Positions 4,123 to 55,398 of a stretch of DNA of 55,398 bases are shown here, one piece after another. The notes beneath the pieces were generated by a model. It saw only the letters and a list, made by a program, of their open reading frames with translations, made no database searches and was not told the DNA's origin. How positions within the stretch are numbered: the stretch's first letter is position 1; the number at the start of each line of letters is the position of its first letter. Position numbers and translations under genes: made by a program. The stretch covers positions 1 through 55,398 of the forward strand of contig JALWRC010000068.1 in assembly GCA_027080725.1 (NCBI GenBank). Direction: 5' to 3'. This DNA is from Saprospiraceae bacterium. Lineage in GTDB: Bacteria; Bacteroidota; Bacteroidia; Chitinophagales; Saprospiraceae.

Positions 4123-5022
4123 CTAATTGCGTCTATCTTCGCCCCAATGAAGCTTTTCTCTGATTCTTTTCATAAAAGAGGAAGAACCCACATAAACGAG
4201 TTGCGCCTTAAAAGGAGCTTTCTCCAGTGTTATTTCTTGTTCTCTGGTGATATAGGCGTGTCTCGAGTCAAGGGTGACCATAAAGTTATTGGCTCTTCCT
4301 TTTACTTGAAGCTTTATTCGAAGTGTATCACTTATTACCACTGGACGAACACTGAGATTGTGAGGAGCTACGGCAGTTATAACAAAATTTCCAGATTTAG
4401 GGAAAAGTATCGGACTCCCGCAACTCAAAGAATAAGCAGTTGATCCCGTAGGGGTCGATACCAATAAACCATCTGCCCAATAACTATTGAGCAATTCATC
4501 ATTGATATACAGAGAAACATTAATCATAGAAGACGAGTCCAGCCTTCGTATGGTAAATTCATTCAGGGCATAAGGGAAATTATCAAATATTTCTATTTTT
4601 GAGGTTATCCCAATAAGGGTGCGCTCCTCCACCAAGTATTGTCCTGACATGAGTTGGTTAAAGGCTTCTCGTATCTCTGTTTTTTTAACCCCGGCTAAAA
4701 AACCCAATCTTCCGAGATTAATACCAAGAACAGGTATTTGTCGTCCGCGAAGTAGATGGATAACGCGTAACATAGTCCCATCTCCCCCCAGTGCTATCAC
4801 AATGCTCCCCGGATGAAGAGATAAATTCCGGACAGAAAACCGGGCCCCGGTGGGTATTAACTCTCCTATAGAGGGATAATCTGTGGTGGCTTTAAGGAAA
4901 TCCTCGTGATAATATAAGTTGACATCATAGGATTGAAGTAATGTCAATGCCTCCTCCACATATCGCACATCTTCCTGATGTACTGTCCTGGCATATAGAT
5001 GAACATTGGTAAATGATTGCAT
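4123..5022 (-). CDS. nadK: NAD kinase
   Basis: NAD kinase phosphorylates NAD to NADP. The protein shows the diagnostic GGDGTMLRVIHLLRGR, the LGRLGFLA segment, the substrate-binding NEFTIRR, and the TPTGSTAYSLSCGSPI loop. I start it at ATG 5020-5022 (MQSFTNVHLY), giving 299 residues, the normal length. The frame stays open for 19 further codons to 5079, but those run through the promoter and into the inserted MITE, so they are very unlikely to be coding. It is convergent with feoB. A -7 element lies at 5046-5053, right beside the MITE. Confidence 0.95.
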   Translation of the reverse strand: MQSFTNVHLYARTVHQEDVRYVEEALTLLQSYDVNLYYHEDFLKATTDYPSIGELIPTGARFSVRNLSLHPGSIVIALGGDGTMLRVIHLLRGRQIPVLGINLGRLGFLAGVKKTEIREAFNQLMSGQYLVEERTLIGITSKIEIFDNFPYALNEFTIRRLDSSSMINVSLYINDELLNSYWADGLLVSTPTGSTAYSLSCGSPILFPKSGNFVITAVAPHNLSVRPVVISDTLRIKLQVKGRANNFMVTLDSRHAYITREQEITLEKAPFKAQLVYVGSSSFMKRIREKLHWGEDRRN

Positions 5023-5045
5023 TTTTCTTTGGGTTGGATAAAACC

Positions 5046-5053
5046 CAAAGATA
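5046..5053 (-). promoter_or_regulatory. nadK -7 promoter element
   Basis: On the minus strand this reads TATCTTTG, a match to TAnnTTTG, 24 bases upstream of the nadK ATG. The MITE target TA (5056-5057) begins three bases further upstream, so any original -33 element was displaced. A TTGACA within the MITE end, 20 bases before TATCTTTG, may substitute for it. Confidence 0.45.
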
Positions 5054-5055
5054 CG

Positions 5056-5219
5056 TAGTGCTTGCCAGAAAACTGTCAATTTTTATGAAATGAAAGATTT
5101 TGGATGAGCTTTTTCATTTTTCGAGACGAAGTGATGCCGGGGTATCAGTGAGTTGAGAAAAATAAAAAGATCGCCAAAAGATACATTTCTAATTTTGAAG
5201 CGTTTTCTTGCAGGCACTA
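5056..5219. mobile_element. 160-bp MITE copy 1, TA-flanked
   Basis: The element spans 5058-5217 and is bordered by TA on both sides. Its ends, GTGCTTGCCAGAAAAC and the reverse complement GTGCCTGCAAGAAAAC, match at 14 of 16 positions. A second copy of identical length at 52734-52893 differs at only two positions by eye. TA target duplication and short terminal inverted repeats without coding capacity fit a MITE mobilised by an IS630/Tc1-type transposase; that assignment is inference, as no transposase is present. It holds a plus-strand TAATTTTG (5190-5197) pointing at the gene starting at 5307. Confidence 0.8.
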
Positions 5220-5306
5220 CATAATAGAATAACGCACCAACCAAATGCGAAGAATTATTATATGTCATCCGAATAGATTGTATCTTCGCTTTTTTAAAAC
5301 AACGGC

Positions 5307-6267
5307 ATGAATCCAACGGAAAGCAAGCAAGTATGGTCATCACATTGTCAAGAGGACGATGATGTTCCGGTGTTTATGCAACCCTGGTGGTGGGATATCA
5401 CTGCAGGGGAAGAACATTGGGAAGTGGTTCTTGCTCAATCCAAAAAACAATCTATTTTGGGTGCCCTCCTTTATGCTCAAAAACAGTTTTTCGGAGTAAA
5501 ACGGCTGACTCTTCCGGTTTTTACCCCAATCAACGGCGTTTGGTTTTCTAAACATGATACCGACAAAGCCCATTCTTTCTATTCCAAAAGAAGAAAAATC
5601 CTATCCCAAATCATCCGACAGTTGCCCCGCGCCGCTTTTCACGATTTCAAGCTGCATTATACTTTGGAAGATTGGTTGCCTTTTAAATGGGCCGGATACA
5701 AACAGACCACCCAATATACGCAAACACTCGACTTAACACCGGATGAAACCACCTTGTATGAAGCCTTTAAAGGGGGAACAAGAAGTAAGATTAACAAGGT
5801 CAGAGAGAGGTTTGAAATGGTGGAAATCAAAGATATAAAACGCTTTTTGGATCACATTAATAGGGTCGCGGCATTTAAAAACATACCTTATACCAAGCAA
5901 AATCTCCACACAATCGGCCGGCTGCATCAGGAGATTGAACAAAGGGACTTGGGCACCATTTTGGCCGCAAAAGACGAAAAAGGAGATATCCATGCTATGA
6001 TATATATTGTTTTCTCCGCCGGGACAGCGCACTATTGGTTGGGTGGGGCCCATCCGGAATTTAGGGATACCAATGGTATGTATTTTTTGCTTTGGGAGGC
6101 GATCAAAAAGAGTAAATCAAGAGCAGGTGTTTTTGATTTTGATGGGAGTAATCACCCCAATATTGCCCCGGTTTTTACTGGTTTTGGCGCCATTCCACAA
6201 TCCAACCATTACATTTACAGGTCAAAAAATCTATTCTATAAGATTTTGAGACAAATCATCAATAAAG

Positions 6268-6278
<11 letters not shown>
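5307..6278 (+). CDS. GNAT/FemAB-like acyltransferase
   Basis: The 323-residue soluble protein has the double-GNAT layout of FemAB/BioF2-like acetyltransferases. A first half of alternating strands ends at TQTLDLTPDE. A basic helix, GGTRSKINKVRERF (about 155-168), is typical for FemX-type enzymes. The second GNAT half includes AMIYIVFSAGTAHYWLGGAHPEF and FDFDGSNHPNIAPVFTGFGA. Such proteins transfer acyl or aminoacyl groups to cell-wall or exopolysaccharide precursors; the substrate here is unknown. It overlaps the next gene by 11 bases, so the two are translationally coupled. MITE copy 1 ends 90 bases upstream and may supply its promoter. Confidence 0.75.
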
Positions 6279-31958: not shown

Positions 31959-32014
31959 ACCAACTTTCAAATATTATATTCTTTGCGGCTCTGCGAGAAA
32001 ACCCTTATTTGTTA
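31959..32014 (+). repeat. Left direct repeat of the Rpn island
   Basis: The 56-base segment matches 34025-34088 apart from a few substitutions and an eight-base insertion in the latter. Shared strings include ACCAACTTTCAAAT and CGGCTCTGCGAGAAAACCC. Same orientation. Confidence 0.7.
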
Positions 32015-32626: not shown

Positions 32627-33592
32627 TTATATATTTATCCCGGCTTTCTTTAACAACTCCCGTACCTTTTTGGGGGGAATTTCAAGAATCTCTGCTATTT
32701 GTGCGATATCAAACTGTTTTTTGTGCAGGTTGATGACGGTTTTAGACAAGACTTCCTCCTTTCCTTTCTGCATTCCTTCTCGAATTCCTTCCTCCTTTCC
32801 TTTCTGCATCCCTTTCTGCATCCCTTTCTGCATCCCTTTCTCTATTAAAGCATCGTAGGCTGTCATGATATCTGTTTTTATGGTTGGTGGCAAATCTTCT
32901 ATTATTTCAAGAATAAAATTCACTTCTATGTTTCTCAACACATAAACAATGGAGGGGCGGATTAAGTTCCTTTGGGGTGAATTGGATGCTTCGTTTAATT
33001 TTTCGAAGATCAATTTAATTTTATTCCTCAACTCCTCAGTCCGGAAGATGTATTTTCCCAATAACAGTACTGCGGTCAATAGGGAGTCTCCCAATTCGTT
33101 TAACTGCTCATCGGAAAATTGGGCTAAATCTACAAACAGGGCTATGAACTTTGGGATGTAGGGCTTTAATTCTTCCGGTAGTTCATCGAATAATTCTTCG
33201 ATAGGTTTGAAAATCCATTTTTGTTTTCCGTGATAAAAGACGAATGGCAAGATGGGGTTGAGCGACCTTTTGCTCCTGTATTGTTTGTAGTAACCATAAG
33301 CCACGTAGAGCAACACTTGTACAGCGGTGAAGTCATCGGGTTGGCTTTTGTGTTCCAGGATAATGGAAATGTAAGCCTCCTTATTGTTTTTACGTGATAC
33401 GGAAAAAACAATATCCGAGAACACCTCTTTCAAGTCAGGAAGCACAAAATCGGTTTCAGAATACTTTAATGTATCCAAGTCAATGTACTTTTTGACGTGT
33501 GCCGGCAGAAAAGAAGCTAAGAACTCTTTGGCAAGGGAAAGGTTGCCAAGGATGGTCTTCATATATTTGTCGTGTATGTTATTGATGTTCAT
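32627..33592 (-). CDS. Rpn family recombination-promoting nuclease / putative transposase
   Basis: The 321-residue protein (start ATG 33590-33592, MNINNIHDKYMKTIL) is of the transposase_31/Rpn type (PF04754). Its N-terminal PD-(D/E)XK nuclease core spans KYSETDFVLPDLKEVFSDIVF and AYISIILEHKSQPD, where D, E and K provide the active site. A helical middle follows, then a C-terminal stretch of KGMQ repeats before a helix-turn-helix-like tail (FDIAQIAEILEIPPKKVREL). E. coli RpnA is a DNA nuclease that promotes RecA-independent recombination. The gene sits between REP-like hairpins and outer direct repeats, so it looks mobile or recently acquired. Three exact 12-bp DNA repeats at 32800-32835 encode the KGMQ units. 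Confidence 0.88.
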   Translation of the reverse strand: MNINNIHDKYMKTILGNLSLAKEFLASFLPAHVKKYIDLDTLKYSETDFVLPDLKEVFSDIVFSVSRKNNKEAYISIILEHKSQPDDFTAVQVLLYVAYGYYKQYRSKRSLNPILPFVFYHGKQKWIFKPIEELFDELPEELKPYIPKFIALFVDLAQFSDEQLNELGDSLLTAVLLLGKYIFRTEELRNKIKLIFEKLNEASNSPQRNLIRPSIVYVLRNIEVNFILEIIEDLPPTIKTDIMTAYDALIEKGMQKGMQKGMQKGKEEGIREGMQKGKEEVLSKTVINLHKKQFDIAQIAEILEIPPKKVRELLKKAGINI

Positions 33593-33642
33593 GGTGTAAA
33601 AATACAAAAAAGATTTGTAGTGATAGATTACTAATTGAACTT

Positions 33643-34024: not shown

Positions 34025-34088
34025 ACCAACTTTCAAATGTTATTTTCTTTATGGCTTTGCGGCTCTGCGAGAAAACCCTTATTTGTTA
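34025..34088 (+). repeat. Right direct repeat of the Rpn island
   Basis: This is the partner of 31959-32014 in the same orientation, with an extra ATGGCTTT. It ends 71 bases before the ridA-type ATG; a GTGTATTTTGTAATAC dyad (34095-34110) follows at once. Confidence 0.7.
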
Positions 34089-39571: not shown

Positions 39572-41107
39572 CTAAATCTTCTCCCATTCGTAACCGATAA
39601 TATTCCGCTTTTCACGGCTGAATTCGATGCCGATGAGGTAAATGTTATCCACGTCTTGATATTTTTCCCAATATCGCCGCTCTTTGATTTGTTGCAGGGC
39701 ATTTCCGGTCGCTTTTTCCGATAGTTTAAACTCAAAGATAAAAACCTTGCCTTCAAGTTGGGCAGACAAATCCATTATACCCAGATTGGTAATGTCTTCA
39801 GGTGTGAGGTCGAGGCCTATGCTGGCGAGATAAGCATATACTACACTCGCATAATACCCTTCGTAATCCGGGAGCTTACTGTTGGTAAAGTTGCTGTATG
39901 GAATGGAGGCAAATAGAGAATAAAGCGCATCTTTGAATCCGTCCAAATCAGCATTTCGGAGCATATACAACAAGCGCTTTTGCTGCTTTAGCTTTTCAGT
40001 TGTTTGGGTAGTCAAATAAGTTATAAACAGGCTATTTAGCGATATACTTATTTCCTTATTTGGAATGCCTAAAGTGTACTCAACGCCAAACACATCTTCC
40101 ATTTTTCCGGTTATGGTCAAATATCCCGTTTGCCAGAGCAAGGCTACCAATTCGATATTATCAACATCAAACGTATTCAGAACTTCTTTACTGGCAACAA
40201 AGTTTTCTAATTCCGGAATATAATAATTTCTGGTTTTCAACATATCGATCAGGAAGGAAGGATTGCCCGTCTCCCACCAATAATTGCTAAATTCAAATCT
40301 ATTGGATATAAAAAGCAAAATATCAAACGGATTATATACTTTATCTCCAAAATAATTATAGCCATTGTACCACTGCTTTACCTTTTGCATATCGGCGCCT
40401 CGCAGGTGCTCTTCAAAAACCGTTAGCAAATCATTGTGAGTATAACCACAAATATTGCCGTAATCAGGATGCAATGTAATGTCTTCGAGGTTATTCAACC
40501 CGCTAAACAGGTTCATCTTGGAGAATTTGCTGACTCCGGTGATAAATACAAATTGGATATAAGCATCATTGTCTTTAATGACGCCATAAAAATCTTTCAT
40601 AGCATCTCGCATCTCGAGCGCGACCTCTCTATTGATGATGTTATCGAGAATGGGCTTGTCGTACTCATCGATGAGGATAACTACTTTTTGATTGTATTTT
40701 TCACTCGCTTTTTGAATCAGCTCTTTGAAGCATCCTTCAGGATCAGATGAATGACAATTAATACCAACAGATTTTTCTGCATCTTCTAAGGTGCTATTCA
40801 ATCTTCTATTTAACTTCTCCATATTTTTAAGAACCCCCGATCCCAAACTTATCCTCAACACCGGATGCTTCACTTCCCAATCCCACTTATCATAGATATA
40901 CAACCCCTTGAAAAGTTGTTTTTTGCCTTCAAATATATCTTTAAGGGTATCCAAAAACAAACTCTTTCCAAATCGACGCGGACGGGAGAGGAAGTAATAG
41001 CCCCCTCTGTCAATGAGCCTATGGGCAATTTCTGTTTTATCAACATAAACGAAATTGCCTTCAATGATTTTACTCAAGGTCTGTATGCCTATTGGAAGTT
41101 TTTTCAT
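39572..41107 (-). CDS. AAA-ATPase-like / PD-(D/E)XK nuclease family protein
   Basis: This complete 511-residue member has an N-terminal AAA-ATPase_like domain with Walker A-like SRPRRFGKSLF (41-51) and Walker B VVILIDEYDKPILD, a helical middle, and a C-terminal PD-(D/E)XK domain with Asp446 and E459-F-K461 (FEFKLSEKATG). It resembles the truncated gene at 1-1063 most closely and the pair at 52954 and 54558 less. It shares the segment TLHPDYG(N/D)ICGYTH with the latter gene, suggesting exchange between copies. The function is unknown; nuclease activity is predicted from the motif. It is flanked by unrelated housekeeping genes with no IS nearby. Confidence 0.88.
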   Translation of the reverse strand: MKKLPIGIQTLSKIIEGNFVYVDKTEIAHRLIDRGGYYFLSRPRRFGKSLFLDTLKDIFEGKKQLFKGLYIYDKWDWEVKHPVLRISLGSGVLKNMEKLNRRLNSTLEDAEKSVGINCHSSDPEGCFKELIQKASEKYNQKVVILIDEYDKPILDNIINREVALEMRDAMKDFYGVIKDNDAYIQFVFITGVSKFSKMNLFSGLNNLEDITLHPDYGNICGYTHNDLLTVFEEHLRGADMQKVKQWYNGYNYFGDKVYNPFDILLFISNRFEFSNYWWETGNPSFLIDMLKTRNYYIPELENFVASKEVLNTFDVDNIELVALLWQTGYLTITGKMEDVFGVEYTLGIPNKEISISLNSLFITYLTTQTTEKLKQQKRLLYMLRNADLDGFKDALYSLFASIPYSNFTNSKLPDYEGYYASVVYAYLASIGLDLTPEDITNLGIMDLSAQLEGKVFIFEFKLSEKATGNALQQIKERRYWEKYQDVDNIYLIGIEFSREKRNIIGYEWEKI

Positions 41108-50304: not shown

Positions 50305-52326
50305 CTATTGGCAATTCAGCCCAGATATCTCTTGTTTGAGTTTATCTAAACCATCCACAGGTGGCATACAAGATTTTCCCTTGCAAATATAAATGGTGGT
50401 CTTCCATTGTACGGTTTTATCCTTAAGGATGGGCAAGTCATTCGTTTGCTCTTGTGCTCCTGCAAGGATACTTCCCGGGATATAAGCCCGCAGCAGACGC
50501 TCATACGCATTGCGGTAATGCTCTCCCAAAAGCACCATTTCGGTATGCCCTCCCGTAAAATACATGATATTGGACAGCCATTGTCCATGCCCCATGGGTT
50601 GGTGGATTATCCTCATGGTCGCTCTTTGGATGATTTCTTCAGAGGTGATTCTCCATTCTTCTCTACCTGTGATGGCCCCATACACATACATCATCTCCGT
50701 TATGACCGCAAAACCGGAAGGTACCGGCACATCTTGCCAAATTATCTTCCGGATGATGGTATCCTCTCGATTCTTTGACGAGAAGAAAAATACGCCTTTG
50801 TCCTGGTCATAAAACTCGACCTGAGCCCGACTCAATATCCGTTCTCCCAGTTCTACCCAACTTTTATCCTGCGTAATCACGAAAAGTTCGTATGCGGCCC
50901 GTATTACAAACGCATAATCGTCTAAGTTTCCGGTGATGGGCACATCCCCATGAATATGCAAGACACTGTAATCCGGTCGGATAAAGTGCTTTTTTAGGTA
51001 TGAAATGGTTGAAAGGGCGAGTTTCAAGTAACGCTTTTCTCCTGTTGCCCGGTACGCCCGGCACCATGCGGACACTAATAATGCATTCCAATCTGCCAAT
51101 ATTTTTCGATCTATTCCGGGCAAAACCCGGGTTTTAGTCCGGTGGGACAGTATTTTGTGCCGGGCAGCTTGAGTTTGTATTCTCTGTTCCATGAGGCTTT
51201 GGTAAGAGGTATCGGGGTCCACCTCCGGGATGTTTTTTCCTTCCCAATTGCCCTCATCCGTAATGTTGTACAAGTGCATAAATGCTTCTGCCTCCTCTCC
51301 CAGTATTTCCTCCATCTCTCCCTTATCCCAAATGTAATACCTACCTTCTTGTCCTTCGCTATCCGCGTCCATCGCACTGTAAAAACCGCCTTCCCCATCG
51401 GACATCTCCCGTTCGATCCATGCCGTAATATCCGCCATTTCATACTCAAAACGCCTATCCAGACAAGACATAGTGACATTGGCCAGCAACTCGATTAAAA
51501 GCGCGTTGTCGTAAAGCATTTTTTCGAAATGAGGGACCCTCCAATCTCTTGTCGTACTGTATCGCGTTATCCCTCCACCGATGTGGTCGTAGATTCCTCC
51601 GCGAATAATATGATCTACGGTCTTTATCAAATGCCGGCCGGCCCATTGGCTCTTGAGCAGGACCGACGCATCCAAGAGAAAATGCAAGTCGGCAATGGAG
51701 GGAAACTTCGGTGCATGACCAAATCCGCCAAACTGAGAGTCAGCTCGCTTTTGAAATAGTTCCGGTACCTTATCGACAGCATACTCCGTCTTGGCCTCCA
51801 ATCGATAATCTTCCGGCAACTCCGGTTGCTGGCTTTTATCCATCGCTTCGGTCAATCTATCCCCTACATTCTCCACTTGTCTCCTGTTGTGCTGATACAG
51901 GTGGGCGATATGCGAGAGGACATCCATCCACGACGGCATACCCCCTCTCCCTTCGGGGGGGAAATACGTACCGCCATAAAAGGGTTTTAATTGTGGTGTC
52001 AAGAAGATATTCAAGGGCCAACCACCACTTCCGGTAAGCAACTGCAACGCTTGCATGTAAATCGCATCAATATCCGGGTGTTCTTCGCGGTCCACCTTGA
52101 TGTTAACATAGTGGGTATTCATAAAATCCGCTATCTCTTCGTTTTCAAAACTCTCATGCGCCATGACGTGACACCAATGACAGGAAGAATATCCGATGCT
52201 CAGCAAGATGGGCTTGTCTTCCTCCTCCGCACGCCGAAATGCCGCCTTTCCCCATGGGTACCACTCCACGGGATTGTCTGCATGCTGGAGTAAATACGGA
52301 CTTGTCTCTAACTTTAATCTATTCAT
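50305..52326 (-). CDS. DUF255/thioredoxin-domain protein (YyaL/SPATA20 family)
   Basis: From ATG 52324-52326 ([20 protein letters not shown]) the protein has 673 residues. It has an N-terminal thioredoxin-like DUF255 domain with the conserved [14 protein letters not shown] motif (Cys49, Cys52) and [15 protein letters not shown] long (alpha/alpha)6-barrel follows, like N-acylglucosamine epimerase/glycosidases ([40 protein letters not shown]). Members are widespread; the biochemical role is not settled. The frame extends 45 codons upstream, but that stretch includes the dispersed motif and is not coding. Confidence 0.92.
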
Positions 52327-52953
52327 CGTTTTCGGTTTATCTGCCACAAGATAATAATAAACATTGGCTTCCGACAGATACACTCTTAACAGGTTTGTAT
52401 TACAAAGTGCACTATTTTGATTGAAGAACAAGGAACGAGTAGAATATCGAACTTGGAACACCTATTAGCGATTTTAGATTTATTTGTGATTTTTTATCCT
52501 ATCATATTTTTTTGAGCGGTTTCTACTGAAAAATTAATCAATCGTTCTTCTATGTTAAATTTATTCATTCTTACTTTTACTTCTAAAATCGGCATTCGTT
52601 AATCCTTGTTCGATATTCATTTTATCCAATGCTGTTTGTTCATTAGCTGAAAGATTACAGGTGTGTATCTTTACTCAGACATCGAAAGGATTATGTATCT
52701 TTGTTTTCCGGTCATATGCTCCATCTTTACATAGTGCTTGCCAGAAAACTGTCAAATTTTATGAAATGAAAGATTTTGGATGAGCTTTTTCGTTTTTCGA
52801 GACGAAGTGATGCCGGGGTATCAGTGAGTTGAGAAAAATAAAAAGATCGCCAAAAGATACATTTCTAATTTTGAAGCGTTTTCTTGCAGGCACTATATAG
52901 CCTCTCTTGTAATTGCATTTAAGAGATGACTAGAAGAATTTAAAAGCAAACAA
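52327..52953. other. Repeat-rich intergenic region holding MITE copy 2
   Basis: TTTGTATTACAAAGTGCAC at 52394-52412 is a full dispersed-motif instance. Next come AT-rich sequences with GAATATCGAAC (about 52442) and its inverse GTTCGATATTC (about 52607-52617), resembling short interspersed repeats. The MITE fills 52734-52893. The last 60 bases are the leader of the nuclease gene at 52954. No gene is supported. Confidence 0.5.
52732..52895. mobile_element. 160-bp MITE copy 2, TA-flanked
   Basis: This is the second copy of the element at 5058-5217, with identical length (52734-52893), TA on both sides, the same terminal inverted repeats and two substitutions by eye. Its plus-strand TAATTTTG (52866-52873) points at the nuclease gene starting at 52954, 81 bases downstream. 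Confidence 0.82.
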
Positions 52954-54495
52954 ATGAAAAAACTTCCAATCGGGATACAGACTTTTAGTAAAATTATAGA
53001 AGGGGAGTTGGCTTATGTGGATAAGACACCGATCGCCCTCCAATTAATCGAAAATGGGGAGTTCTATTTCCTTTCCCGTCCGCGACGCTTCGGCAAAAGC
53101 CTGTTTCTCGATACCCTCAAAGAAATTTTTGAAGGAAACAAAGCACTCTTCAAAGGACTCTACATATATGACCGGTGGGACTGGAATGTCAAGTATCCGG
53201 TCTTGAGAGTTAGCTTGGGCTCCGGCGTTCACAAGTCTATTGATGAGCTCGAAGAAAATCTGCATTGGATTCTTAAAAGACCACAAAGAGAGCTCGGTAT
53301 CGAGTGCTCCGGAAATCTTAAAGCTAAACAGTGCTTCGAACAACTTTTAGTTTCCGCCTACCAAAAATACGGGCAAAAAGTCGTCGTCCTTATCGACGAA
53401 TACGACAAACCCATCCTCGACAATATAACCGATAGCGAGGTCGCCCGCGCTATGAGAGACACCATGAAGGACTTTTACGGCGTCATCAAGGACAATGACG
53501 CTTACATCCGCTTTGTCTTTATCACGGGGGTCAGCAAATTCTCCAAGATGAATCTCTTTAGCGGGCTTAATAATTTGGAAGATATTACCTTAGATAAAAA
53601 CTTTTCCACCATTTGTGGGTACACACACCATGACCTCCTTACGGTGTTTAAAGAGCATCTCAAGGGGGCGGATATGGAAAAGGTCCGCGAGTGGTACAAT
53701 GGCTACAATTATTTAGGCGAAAAAGTTTACAATCCTTTTGACATTCTTCTGTTTATTAAGAAAAATTTCACTTATAGAAATTATTGGTGGGATACCGGCA
53801 ATCCCTCTTTTCTAATCGATATGTTGAAAACAGGGGAGTATTTTATCCCCGAGCTCGAGCACTTTGTGGCCAACGAGGAAATACTCAATACCTTTGACGT
53901 CGATAGAATCGAACTCGTAGCACTGCTCTGGCAAACGGGTTATCTGACCATCGAAGAACAACTCCCTTCACCCTTTGCCATAAAATATAAACTCACCACT
54001 CCAAACAAGGAAGTCCAAACCTCCCTCAATAGCCTTTTTATCTCTTATTTGACCCAACAAACCACTCAAAAACTAAAATTTCAGGATAAGCTCTATTCTA
54101 TTCTGGCTGAGGCTGATTTGGAGGGCCTCCAAGAGGTTTTATTCTCCTTGTTTGCCTCCATCCCCTATACCAACTTTACCAACAACCAACTGGCAGAGTA
54201 TGAGGGCTATTACGCCAGTGTCGTCTATGCCTACCTCTCCAGCCTCGGTCTTCACATCATCCCCGAGGATATCAGCAACCTCGACAGAATGGATTTGAGC
54301 ATTCTACTCGATGGGAAAGTCTTTATCCTCGAGTTTAAACTATCCGAAAAAGCCTCCGGCCGCGCCCTGGAACAGATCAAAGAAAAGAGATACTACGAGA
54401 AGTTTATGGACCAAGACGAAGTCTATCTCATCGGTATCGAGTTTAGTCGCGAAAAGAGAAATATCATCGGTTATGAATGGGAGCGAATAAAATGA
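52954..54495 (+). CDS. AAA-ATPase-like / PD-(D/E)XK nuclease family protein, tandem copy A
   Basis: The 513-residue protein has the same architecture as 39572-41107: MKKLPIGIQTFSKIIEG, Walker A-like SRPRRFGKSLF, Walker B VVVLIDEYDKPILDN, and a C-terminal nuclease core with Asp447 and E460-F-K462. Positions about 53161-53440 are almost identical at DNA level to 54766-55045 in the next gene, while flanking parts are more diverged, indicating recent duplication or gene conversion. The promoter may come from the MITE 60 bases upstream. The leader AGCAAACAAATG resembles that of the next copy. Confidence 0.88.
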   Translation: MKKLPIGIQTFSKIIEGELAYVDKTPIALQLIENGEFYFLSRPRRFGKSLFLDTLKEIFEGNKALFKGLYIYDRWDWNVKYPVLRVSLGSGVHKSIDELEENLHWILKRPQRELGIECSGNLKAKQCFEQLLVSAYQKYGQKVVVLIDEYDKPILDNITDSEVARAMRDTMKDFYGVIKDNDAYIRFVFITGVSKFSKMNLFSGLNNLEDITLDKNFSTICGYTHHDLLTVFKEHLKGADMEKVREWYNGYNYLGEKVYNPFDILLFIKKNFTYRNYWWDTGNPSFLIDMLKTGEYFIPELEHFVANEEILNTFDVDRIELVALLWQTGYLTIEEQLPSPFAIKYKLTTPNKEVQTSLNSLFISYLTQQTTQKLKFQDKLYSILAEADLEGLQEVLFSLFASIPYTNFTNNQLAEYEGYYASVVYAYLSSLGLHIIPEDISNLDRMDLSILLDGKVFILEFKLSEKASGRALEQIKEKRYYEKFMDQDEVYLIGIEFSREKRNIIGYEWERIK

Positions 54496-54557
54496 GGGAC
54501 AAAGGGGGAAAGAAGTAAAATACAGGTGACCGTTAAAAGACAATAAAAAGTAAACAA

Positions 54558-55398
54558 ATGAAAAAACTTCCTATTGGAATACAAACTTTTTCTGAAATCA
54601 TTACGGATGGATATTGTTATGTAGATAAAACAAAGATCGCCCACCATCTGATTCAAAATGGCAAGTTCTACTTCCTTTCCCGTCCCCGGCGCTTCGGCAA
54701 AAGCCTGTTTCTCGACACCCTCAAAGAGATTTTCGAAGGGGACAAAGCCCTCTTCAAAGGACTCTACATATATGACCGGTGGGACTGGGAGGTCAAGTAT
54801 CCGGTCTTGAGAGTTAGCTTGGGCTCCGGCATTCACAAGTCTATTGATGAGCTCGAAGAAAATCTGCTTTGGATTCTTAAAAGACCACAAAGAGAGCTCG
54901 GTATCGAGTGCTCCGGAAATCTTAAAGCTAAACAGTGCTTCGAACAACTTTTAGTTTCCGCCTACCAAAAATACGGGCAAAAAGTCGTCGTCCTTATCGA
55001 CGAATACGACAAACCCATCCTCGACAATATAACCGATAGCGAGGTTGCTCGCGTTATGAGAGACGCCATGAAGGACTTTTACGGCGTCATCAAGGACAAT
55101 GACGCTTACATCCGCTTTGTCTTTATCACCGGGGTGAGCAAATTCTCCAAGATGAATCTCTTTAGCGGGCTCAATAATTTGGAAGATATTACCCTGCATC
55201 CGGATTACGGAGACATTTGCGGCTATACCCATGAAGACTTAATCACCGTTTTTAAAGAGCATCTTGTGGGGGCAGATATGGAGAAAGTACGCGAATGGTA
55301 CAACGGATATTATTACTTTGGGCCTAAGGTTTACAATCCTTATGATGTCTTGCTCTTTATCTCTCAAAAATTTATGTATAAGAATTACTGGTGGAACA
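54558..55398 (+). CDS. AAA-ATPase-like / PD-(D/E)XK nuclease family protein, tandem copy B, cut by window edge
   Basis: The frame is open from ATG 54558 to the window end, 280 codons. It carries Walker A-like SRPRRFGKSLF and Walker B VVVLIDEYDKPILDN. Up to about 55190 it is nearly the same as the preceding gene. Then it switches to TLHPDYGDICGYTH, like the gene at 39572-41107, so it is a mosaic. It lies 62 bases after the preceding gene in the same direction. The nuclease domain lies beyond the window. Confidence 0.85.
   Translation, partial: MKKLPIGIQTFSEIITDGYCYVDKTKIAHHLIQNGKFYFLSRPRRFGKSLFLDTLKEIFEGDKALFKGLYIYDRWDWEVKYPVLRVSLGSGIHKSIDELEENLLWILKRPQRELGIECSGNLKAKQCFEQLLVSAYQKYGQKVVVLIDEYDKPILDNITDSEVARVMRDAMKDFYGVIKDNDAYIRFVFITGVSKFSKMNLFSGLNNLEDITLHPDYGDICGYTHEDLITVFKEHLVGADMEKVREWYNGYYYFGPKVYNPYDVLLFISQKFMYKNYWWN

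Follow-up and report, generated by a model that had tools for sequence, protein, structure and literature searches.

What kind of element is the 160-bp unit that occurs twice in the window (the whole stretch of 55,398 nucleotides analysed here, which is contig C68 of G000, a genome of 3.80 Mb in 110 contigs), what has moved it, and why should its middle be better kept than its ends? We consider it very likely that the unit is a multicopy MITE which has moved, duplicating 6 bp (TANNTA) at its target and probably served in trans by an ISNCY-type partner, an assessment that covers the element and its movement and leaves the function of its core to be judged separately. The mobility of the MITE is in itself well supported.

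Copies in the genome and their target site

As the preliminary description had it, the unit lies at 5058-5217 and at 52734-52893, both copies on the + strand and of equal length (160 bp between target duplications). They differ at 2 of 164 positions when the TA ends are counted, and 14 of the 16 end positions match as inverted repeats, GTGCTTGCCAGAAAAC against GTGCCTGCAAGAAAAC. The terminal inverted repeats were located by end-pattern search at 5058-5073 (+) and 5202-5217 (-) in copy 1 and at 52734-52749 (+) and 52878-52893 (-) in copy 2, the latter copy having been delimited by unit search and flank reading. They enclose a conserved hairpin core at 5087-5189 and 52763-52865, respectively (both +), which is the part matched by the covariance model R1 described below. 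Copy 1 is flanked by TACGTA (5052-5057), with one mismatch against the right copy of the duplication, which reads TACATA (5218-5223) in its flank. Copy 2 is flanked by TACATA (52728-52733), identical in its letters to a paralogous empty site, and by TATATA (52894-52899), which differs by one base from the left copy as well as from the empty site. TA was thus rightly seen at the borders of both copies, yet it is not the whole duplication but the inner part of a 6-bp TANNTA.

Copy 1 lies between a NAD kinase gene (ORF 4123-5079, -) and a GNAT acetyltransferase gene (5307-6278, +); since the listed ORF start of the former reaches 24 bases inside the copy, the true start of the NAD kinase is probably further in. 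The neighbours of copy 2 are a DUF255 thioredoxin-like gene (50305-52461, -) on the left and an AAA-ATPase_like/PDDEXK_9 gene (52954-54495, +) on the right. The latter gene and a second one of its kind (39572-41107) overlap the majority of the window's long repeats (D1, D2, D4, D6 and I1-I9), further places of which are found at 1-1079 and 54546-55394. Elsewhere in the window, 12-bp units are arranged head-to-tail at 32752-32847 within ORF 32627-33607 (-), and copies of a direct repeat of 39 bp, one at 31981 and one at 34055, flank the same ORF.

Searching the genome with the 164-bp unit gave at least 49 matches, roughly half of which are nearly complete; the count is a lower bound, obtained by scoring 40 of the 104 first-look candidates. 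These matches comprise the 25 near-full-length copies used below, one divergent match at 73%, both halves of four long copies, and fragments. Chance does not account for this: allowing at most one mismatch, the genome contains 78 occurrences of the end pattern TAGTGCNTGCNAGAAAAC and none of its reversed control. Further copies and TA borders, on both of which the preliminary description had staked its reading beforehand, were examined and both were found. Recent movement remains plausible in that three copies are 99-100% identical, although each window copy already carries one change in its duplication. A blastn search of a plasmid collection with the 164-bp unit gave no match, nor did the right-end pattern in a genome-contig collection that perhaps lacks the window's own genome.

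Among the 25 near-full-length copies (a count that includes neither the long copies nor the partial copies L019, L024, L027, L029 and L030, nor the divergent 73% match, which is on C39), the 6-bp flanks are identical in 13, differ by one mismatch in 7 and by two in 5, and in all 13 perfectly duplicated copies identity stops at 6 bp. The left flank reads TANNTA in 20/25, for a window background of 197 TANNTA per 3,620 TA (5.4%). Identical flanks, TAAATA and TACATA, are present in two of the four long copies and absent from the other two. An empty site for copy 2 came from the upstream region of the AAA-ATPase_like/PDDEXK_9 gene family, where a paralogue of 52300-53250 on contig C14 aligns on either side of copy 2, at 94% and 96%, with the element absent. 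Its junction reads CTTTACATAG; C14 reads CATCTTTACATAGTCTCTC, and the window reads CATCTTTACATA, the element and then TATATAGCCTCTC. From these letters, copy 2 was inserted into TACATA and one copy of the duplication later changed by one base. A second paralogue of the locus, on C110, is likewise without the element. Both the empty site, which fits 6 bp, and the 6-bp flanks speak against the 2-bp TA duplication on which an earlier IS630/Tc1 inference had rested. The unit is thus short, without a transposase, bounded by terminal inverted repeats, multicopy, and provided with a target duplication and an empty site, as a MITE should be.

Several variants of the element were seen. Four versions of 330-331 bp in G000 (L031-L034, at C74:4934-5263, C43:5514-5844, C23:21070-21399 and C7:10242-10571) carry an extra palindrome of about 169 bp at the hairpin tip, which has inverted ends of its own (AGTGCTCCG), and they fold as a single concentric hairpin at -115 to -123 kcal/mol. 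At L021:1501-1664 and L026:1501-1658 the arms are fully complementary near the tip, where other copies differ, a pattern that would result from copying of one arm onto its partner. Shortened or very short copies (L035, L037, L039, L048-L050, L052, L053, L057, L062, L065 and L255-L266) retain the right end up to ATGTATCTTTTG, which we take to resemble the -7 box of Bacteroidota. An ATG-started ORF lies at most 90 nt downstream at 10 of 24 such places versus 1 of 24 on the opposite side, as counted by crude ORF calling and with two L039 places that are duplicates. These shortened copies may have been turned into promoters. At L052:9419-9776 a lone MITE-like end (TAGCGCCTGCAAGAAAAC) stands directly before a small ORF whose product is presumably similar to the HigB-type toxins of bacterial toxin-antitoxin systems.

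A candidate partner insertion sequence

A partner elsewhere in the genome had been expected, and IS ends matching the MITE ends were indeed found outside the window, at eight contig ends of G000. Each of them consists of 109-126 bases that start with TAGTGTCTGCCAGAAAAC and soon diverge from the MITE, whereupon the contig stops, a break that is to be expected of a multicopy IS left unresolved by the assembly. The left flank is TANNTA in 8/8. Only about the first 39 bases are common to the MITE and the IS end, at 83-85%, and the conserved core is absent from the 126 readable bases of the latter. In addition, C47 carries a relic, about 480 bp long, with an end 91% identical to the IS end (its left flank, AATATA, is not TANNTA) and a 48-aa open piece with a weak match (E 0.011) to the NCBIfam profile transpos_ISNCY_1 (NF033593). 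This profile had 0 matches in the G000 assembly, and no intact transposase was found there.

A search of 150 genomes of the family with the 48-aa piece recovered, apart from the piece itself, an open frame of 508 codons in G151 (40%, E 7e-5) and a match in G169 (40%, E 0.003), where a perfect TAGTGTCTGCAAGAAAAC end stands ahead of a degraded frame. The G151 element measures 1,933 bp between its ends, TAGTGTCTGAACGAAAAC and TAGTGCCTGAACGAAAAC, and these TAGTGYCTGAACGAAAAC ends enclose the gene of a 503-aa protein that reaches 369.7 bits with NF033593 (cut-off 325); searched against Pfam, the protein matched no family. The flanks of the element, TATTTA and TAAGTA, are both TANNTA and not identical. 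A terminal repeat common to the MITE and to an IS around an NF033593 transposase is therefore found in G151, which belongs to the same family as the window's genome, probably Saprospiraceae. In the genome-contig collection the whole transposase found one relative, CAKZLT010000081.1 (uncultured Saprospiraceae bacterium), which is the G151 contig itself. Two other insertion sequences are worth recording. A more distant one in G015 has a transposase that best fits IS5_1, below the cut-off, and a perfect TAAGTA duplication; that of G007, with IS5_1 above the cut-off, is flanked by two different TANNTA.

Direct observations are the copies, their ends, the 6-bp duplications, the empty site and, at targets of the same type within this genome, the IS ends. 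As to the mover, we infer that the transposase of the contig-end IS mobilises the MITE in trans. The MITE would be a non-autonomous hairpin transposon, probably moved by the transposase of an ISNCY-like IS with the same ends; recognition of the GTGYNTGCNAGAAAAC ends by this enzyme would be followed by insertion of the 160 bp at a TANNTA site, with duplication of 6 bp. In a second and less certain layer of the mechanism, a core of about 103 nt would be kept by selection on one strand, most likely as a self-transcribed RNA hairpin, and the ends would change with the available transposase.

The core, its changing ends and its fold

In blastn searches of 60 relatives with the unit, a clear relative was found, besides the own genome, only in G010 (another genus; at least 14 matches), and these matches cover the middle only (positions 33-133 or 42-133, about 80%); G023 and G050 gave one short match each (E about 4e-4). 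A covariance model, R1, was used instead, built from 26 cores of G000 and G010 with a length of about 103 nt. Scanning 398 genomes of the family at E <=0.001, R1 found the core in 21 genomes from 12 of 112 genera, and 13 of the 21 have eight or more of at most ten scored places. A phylum-wide scan of 395 genomes matched two, the window's own and G612, from another family (E 4.7e-9). The single match in the latter, a one-contig genome (L247, G612:C1:1285837-1285940), has TAGTGTCTGGTCGGAAAC-like ends with TANNTA on either side, TAATTA and TAACTA.

The core sits on two main classes of ends. TAGTGYCTG-like ends were found in G000, G001, G082, G100, G189, G247, G288 and G316, and TGAGTCC-like ends in G010, G124, G136, G162, G171, G195, G217, G242, G327 and G343; TAGTG is joined to a CCACTCCGG-like sequence in G322 and in some copies of G135 and G162, and the right end is not clear in G305. 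Outside G000, identical 6-bp flanks are present in 8 of 18 delimitable copies of the TAGTG class, the eight copies of G001 not being delimitable by TAGTG flank reading and giving no duplication. The typical G010 element, of 163 bp with ends TGAGTCCRCTCCGRAA, has identical 4-bp flanks in 7 of 16 delimited copies, and so do 11 of 20 copies of the TGAG class outside G010, a tally that leaves out two CTAG cases of G135, whose letters may be part of the element. The two end classes probably use different transposases. Matches to NF033593 in 4 of 60 relatives, G010 among them, are below the cut-off; the three tested fit better as IS5_1 (one above the IS5_1 cut-off, two below), and these matches do not reveal the partner of the TGAGTCC class.

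At the level of genus consensus, identity reaches 0.72 for the core, 0.59 and 0.61 for the two ends (perhaps underrated, as the aligner may have mixed both end classes) and 0.47 and 0.50 for the stretches between. Host and element do not simply track each other, since G001, of the same genus as the window's genome, carries a different subtype and G316, of another genus, has a copy (L173) close to that of the window. A core conserved across genera on ends that differ suggests that the middle does something.

The whole element folds as one hairpin, at -59.8 kcal/mol (z -8.1) on the + strand and -41.4 kcal/mol (z -5.0) on the - strand. The consensus fold of 21 cores, taken without G305 and without G327, which runs counter to the trend, reaches -25.57 kcal/mol on + versus -4.61 on -, and -20.96 versus -4.65 when these two weak genomes are added. 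In single copies, the + strand is the more stable in 32/34 of those from G000 and G010 and in 56/58 of those from other genomes. Wobbles were counted as arm-to-arm mismatches that are G-U on + versus those that are G-U on -. With copies aligned to themselves, + wobbles outnumber - wobbles in 20/21 genomes, the exception being G327. In the genus-consensus core there are 77 + versus 25 - cells, with 18/20 genomes for, 1 against and 1 tied; this alignment is without the poorly delimited L217, L190 and L204, by which G305 is absent from the 20 genomes. Counted by independent column, the wobbles are 19 versus 12, and 14 versus 6 for those seen in at least two genomes.

Relative to neighbouring genes, the element is oriented at random (26, 22, 22 and 20 of the 90 copies, out of 98, that have called genes to either side). 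A strand preference arising from insertion context, with the element at the 3′ ends of genes, is ruled out by this. Read-through mRNA consequently fails to explain the preference, and a selected RNA, if any, should stem from the element's own transcription. A search of window positions 5000-5280 against Rfam, with E up to 1, gave 0 matches.

Tentatively, then, we infer that the core is a hairpin module selected on one strand, perhaps as a functional RNA. The element may even be a mobile structured RNA, a self-transcribed hairpin with fold and tip sequence kept across 12 genera on changing transposon ends, though we would stop short of calling this probable; if it were true, the lasting unit would be the hairpin and not the transposon end. 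Perhaps the core is instead conserved as DNA, for instance as a site bound by a host protein or by one involved in transposition, or through hairpin extrusion in single-stranded DNA, an explanation that is possible without being probable. It would suit the random orientation, under which read-through mRNA leaves the strand preference unexplained, and in folded DNA, too, G-T pairs are better tolerated than A-C; a double-stranded binding site, however, would give no reason for the strand asymmetry. It is unlikely that the asymmetry is a functionless accident of descent and mutation, in which a few old wobbles were inherited and arm-to-arm conversion kept the palindrome. Several wobble positions are common to different genera, the arms of L021 and L026 pair without a mismatch close to the tip, the expected outcome of conversion, and private changes lean to the + wobble too (80 versus 43). 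Nonetheless, fixed wobbles lean more strongly (35 versus 4, Fisher p 0.002) in a comparison of the seven genomes with at least 4 copies, with L173, of another subfamily, set aside in G316, although copies share ancestry and fixed wobbles are not independent events. Moreover, the core is conserved above the ends, unlike what neutral decay predicts.

In the usual view, a MITE consists of two ends and, between them, a filler in decay. Here conservation is higher in the filler, and it is the ends that vary, both in sequence and in the length of the duplication. Should the core be functional, it would be a non-coding module that persists by swapping transposases, and a testable system for what the interior of a MITE may do for the element or for its host.

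Comparison with known systems

An IS630/Tc1-type MITE with a 2-bp TA duplication, as assigned in the preliminary description from the TA bordering both window copies, is very improbable in view of flanking repeats of exactly 6 bp in 13/25 copies, an empty site fitting that length, and an intact transposase between such ends in a relative (G151) that is of the ISNCY type (NF033593). The MITE resembles ISNCY-type insertion sequences (NF033593, transpos_ISNCY_1) by the TAGTGYCTGAACGAAAAC ends round the above-cut-off transposase of G151 and by TANNTA at the eight IS ends of G000, but differs from them in having no transposase. The IS1202 family is also filed under ISNCY and has imperfect terminal repeats; the portion of its description consulted gives duplications of 3-5 bp, over 15 bp or 0, one listed ISAjo2 duplication of six letters, and ISAjo2-type outer ends TGT/ACA (PMC10132070). 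By that same portion, the present element is set apart from IS1202 by its ends, GTG/CAC, and by its 6-bp TANNTA, a length outside the family's 3-5, over 15 or 0 bp (PMC10132070). Among the literature matches listed, none describes this MITE or a TANNTA target. Like the hairpin-forming MITEs QMITE2, Correia and ERIC, it is short, AT-rich and intergenic, with a transcript predicted as a stable hairpin; it differs from these, as far as the excerpted description goes, in a core conserved across genera under two classes of ends and duplications and in strand-specific folding (PMC10969869). As a MITE, the element is of a known kind, and what sets it apart is a core that outlasts its ends.
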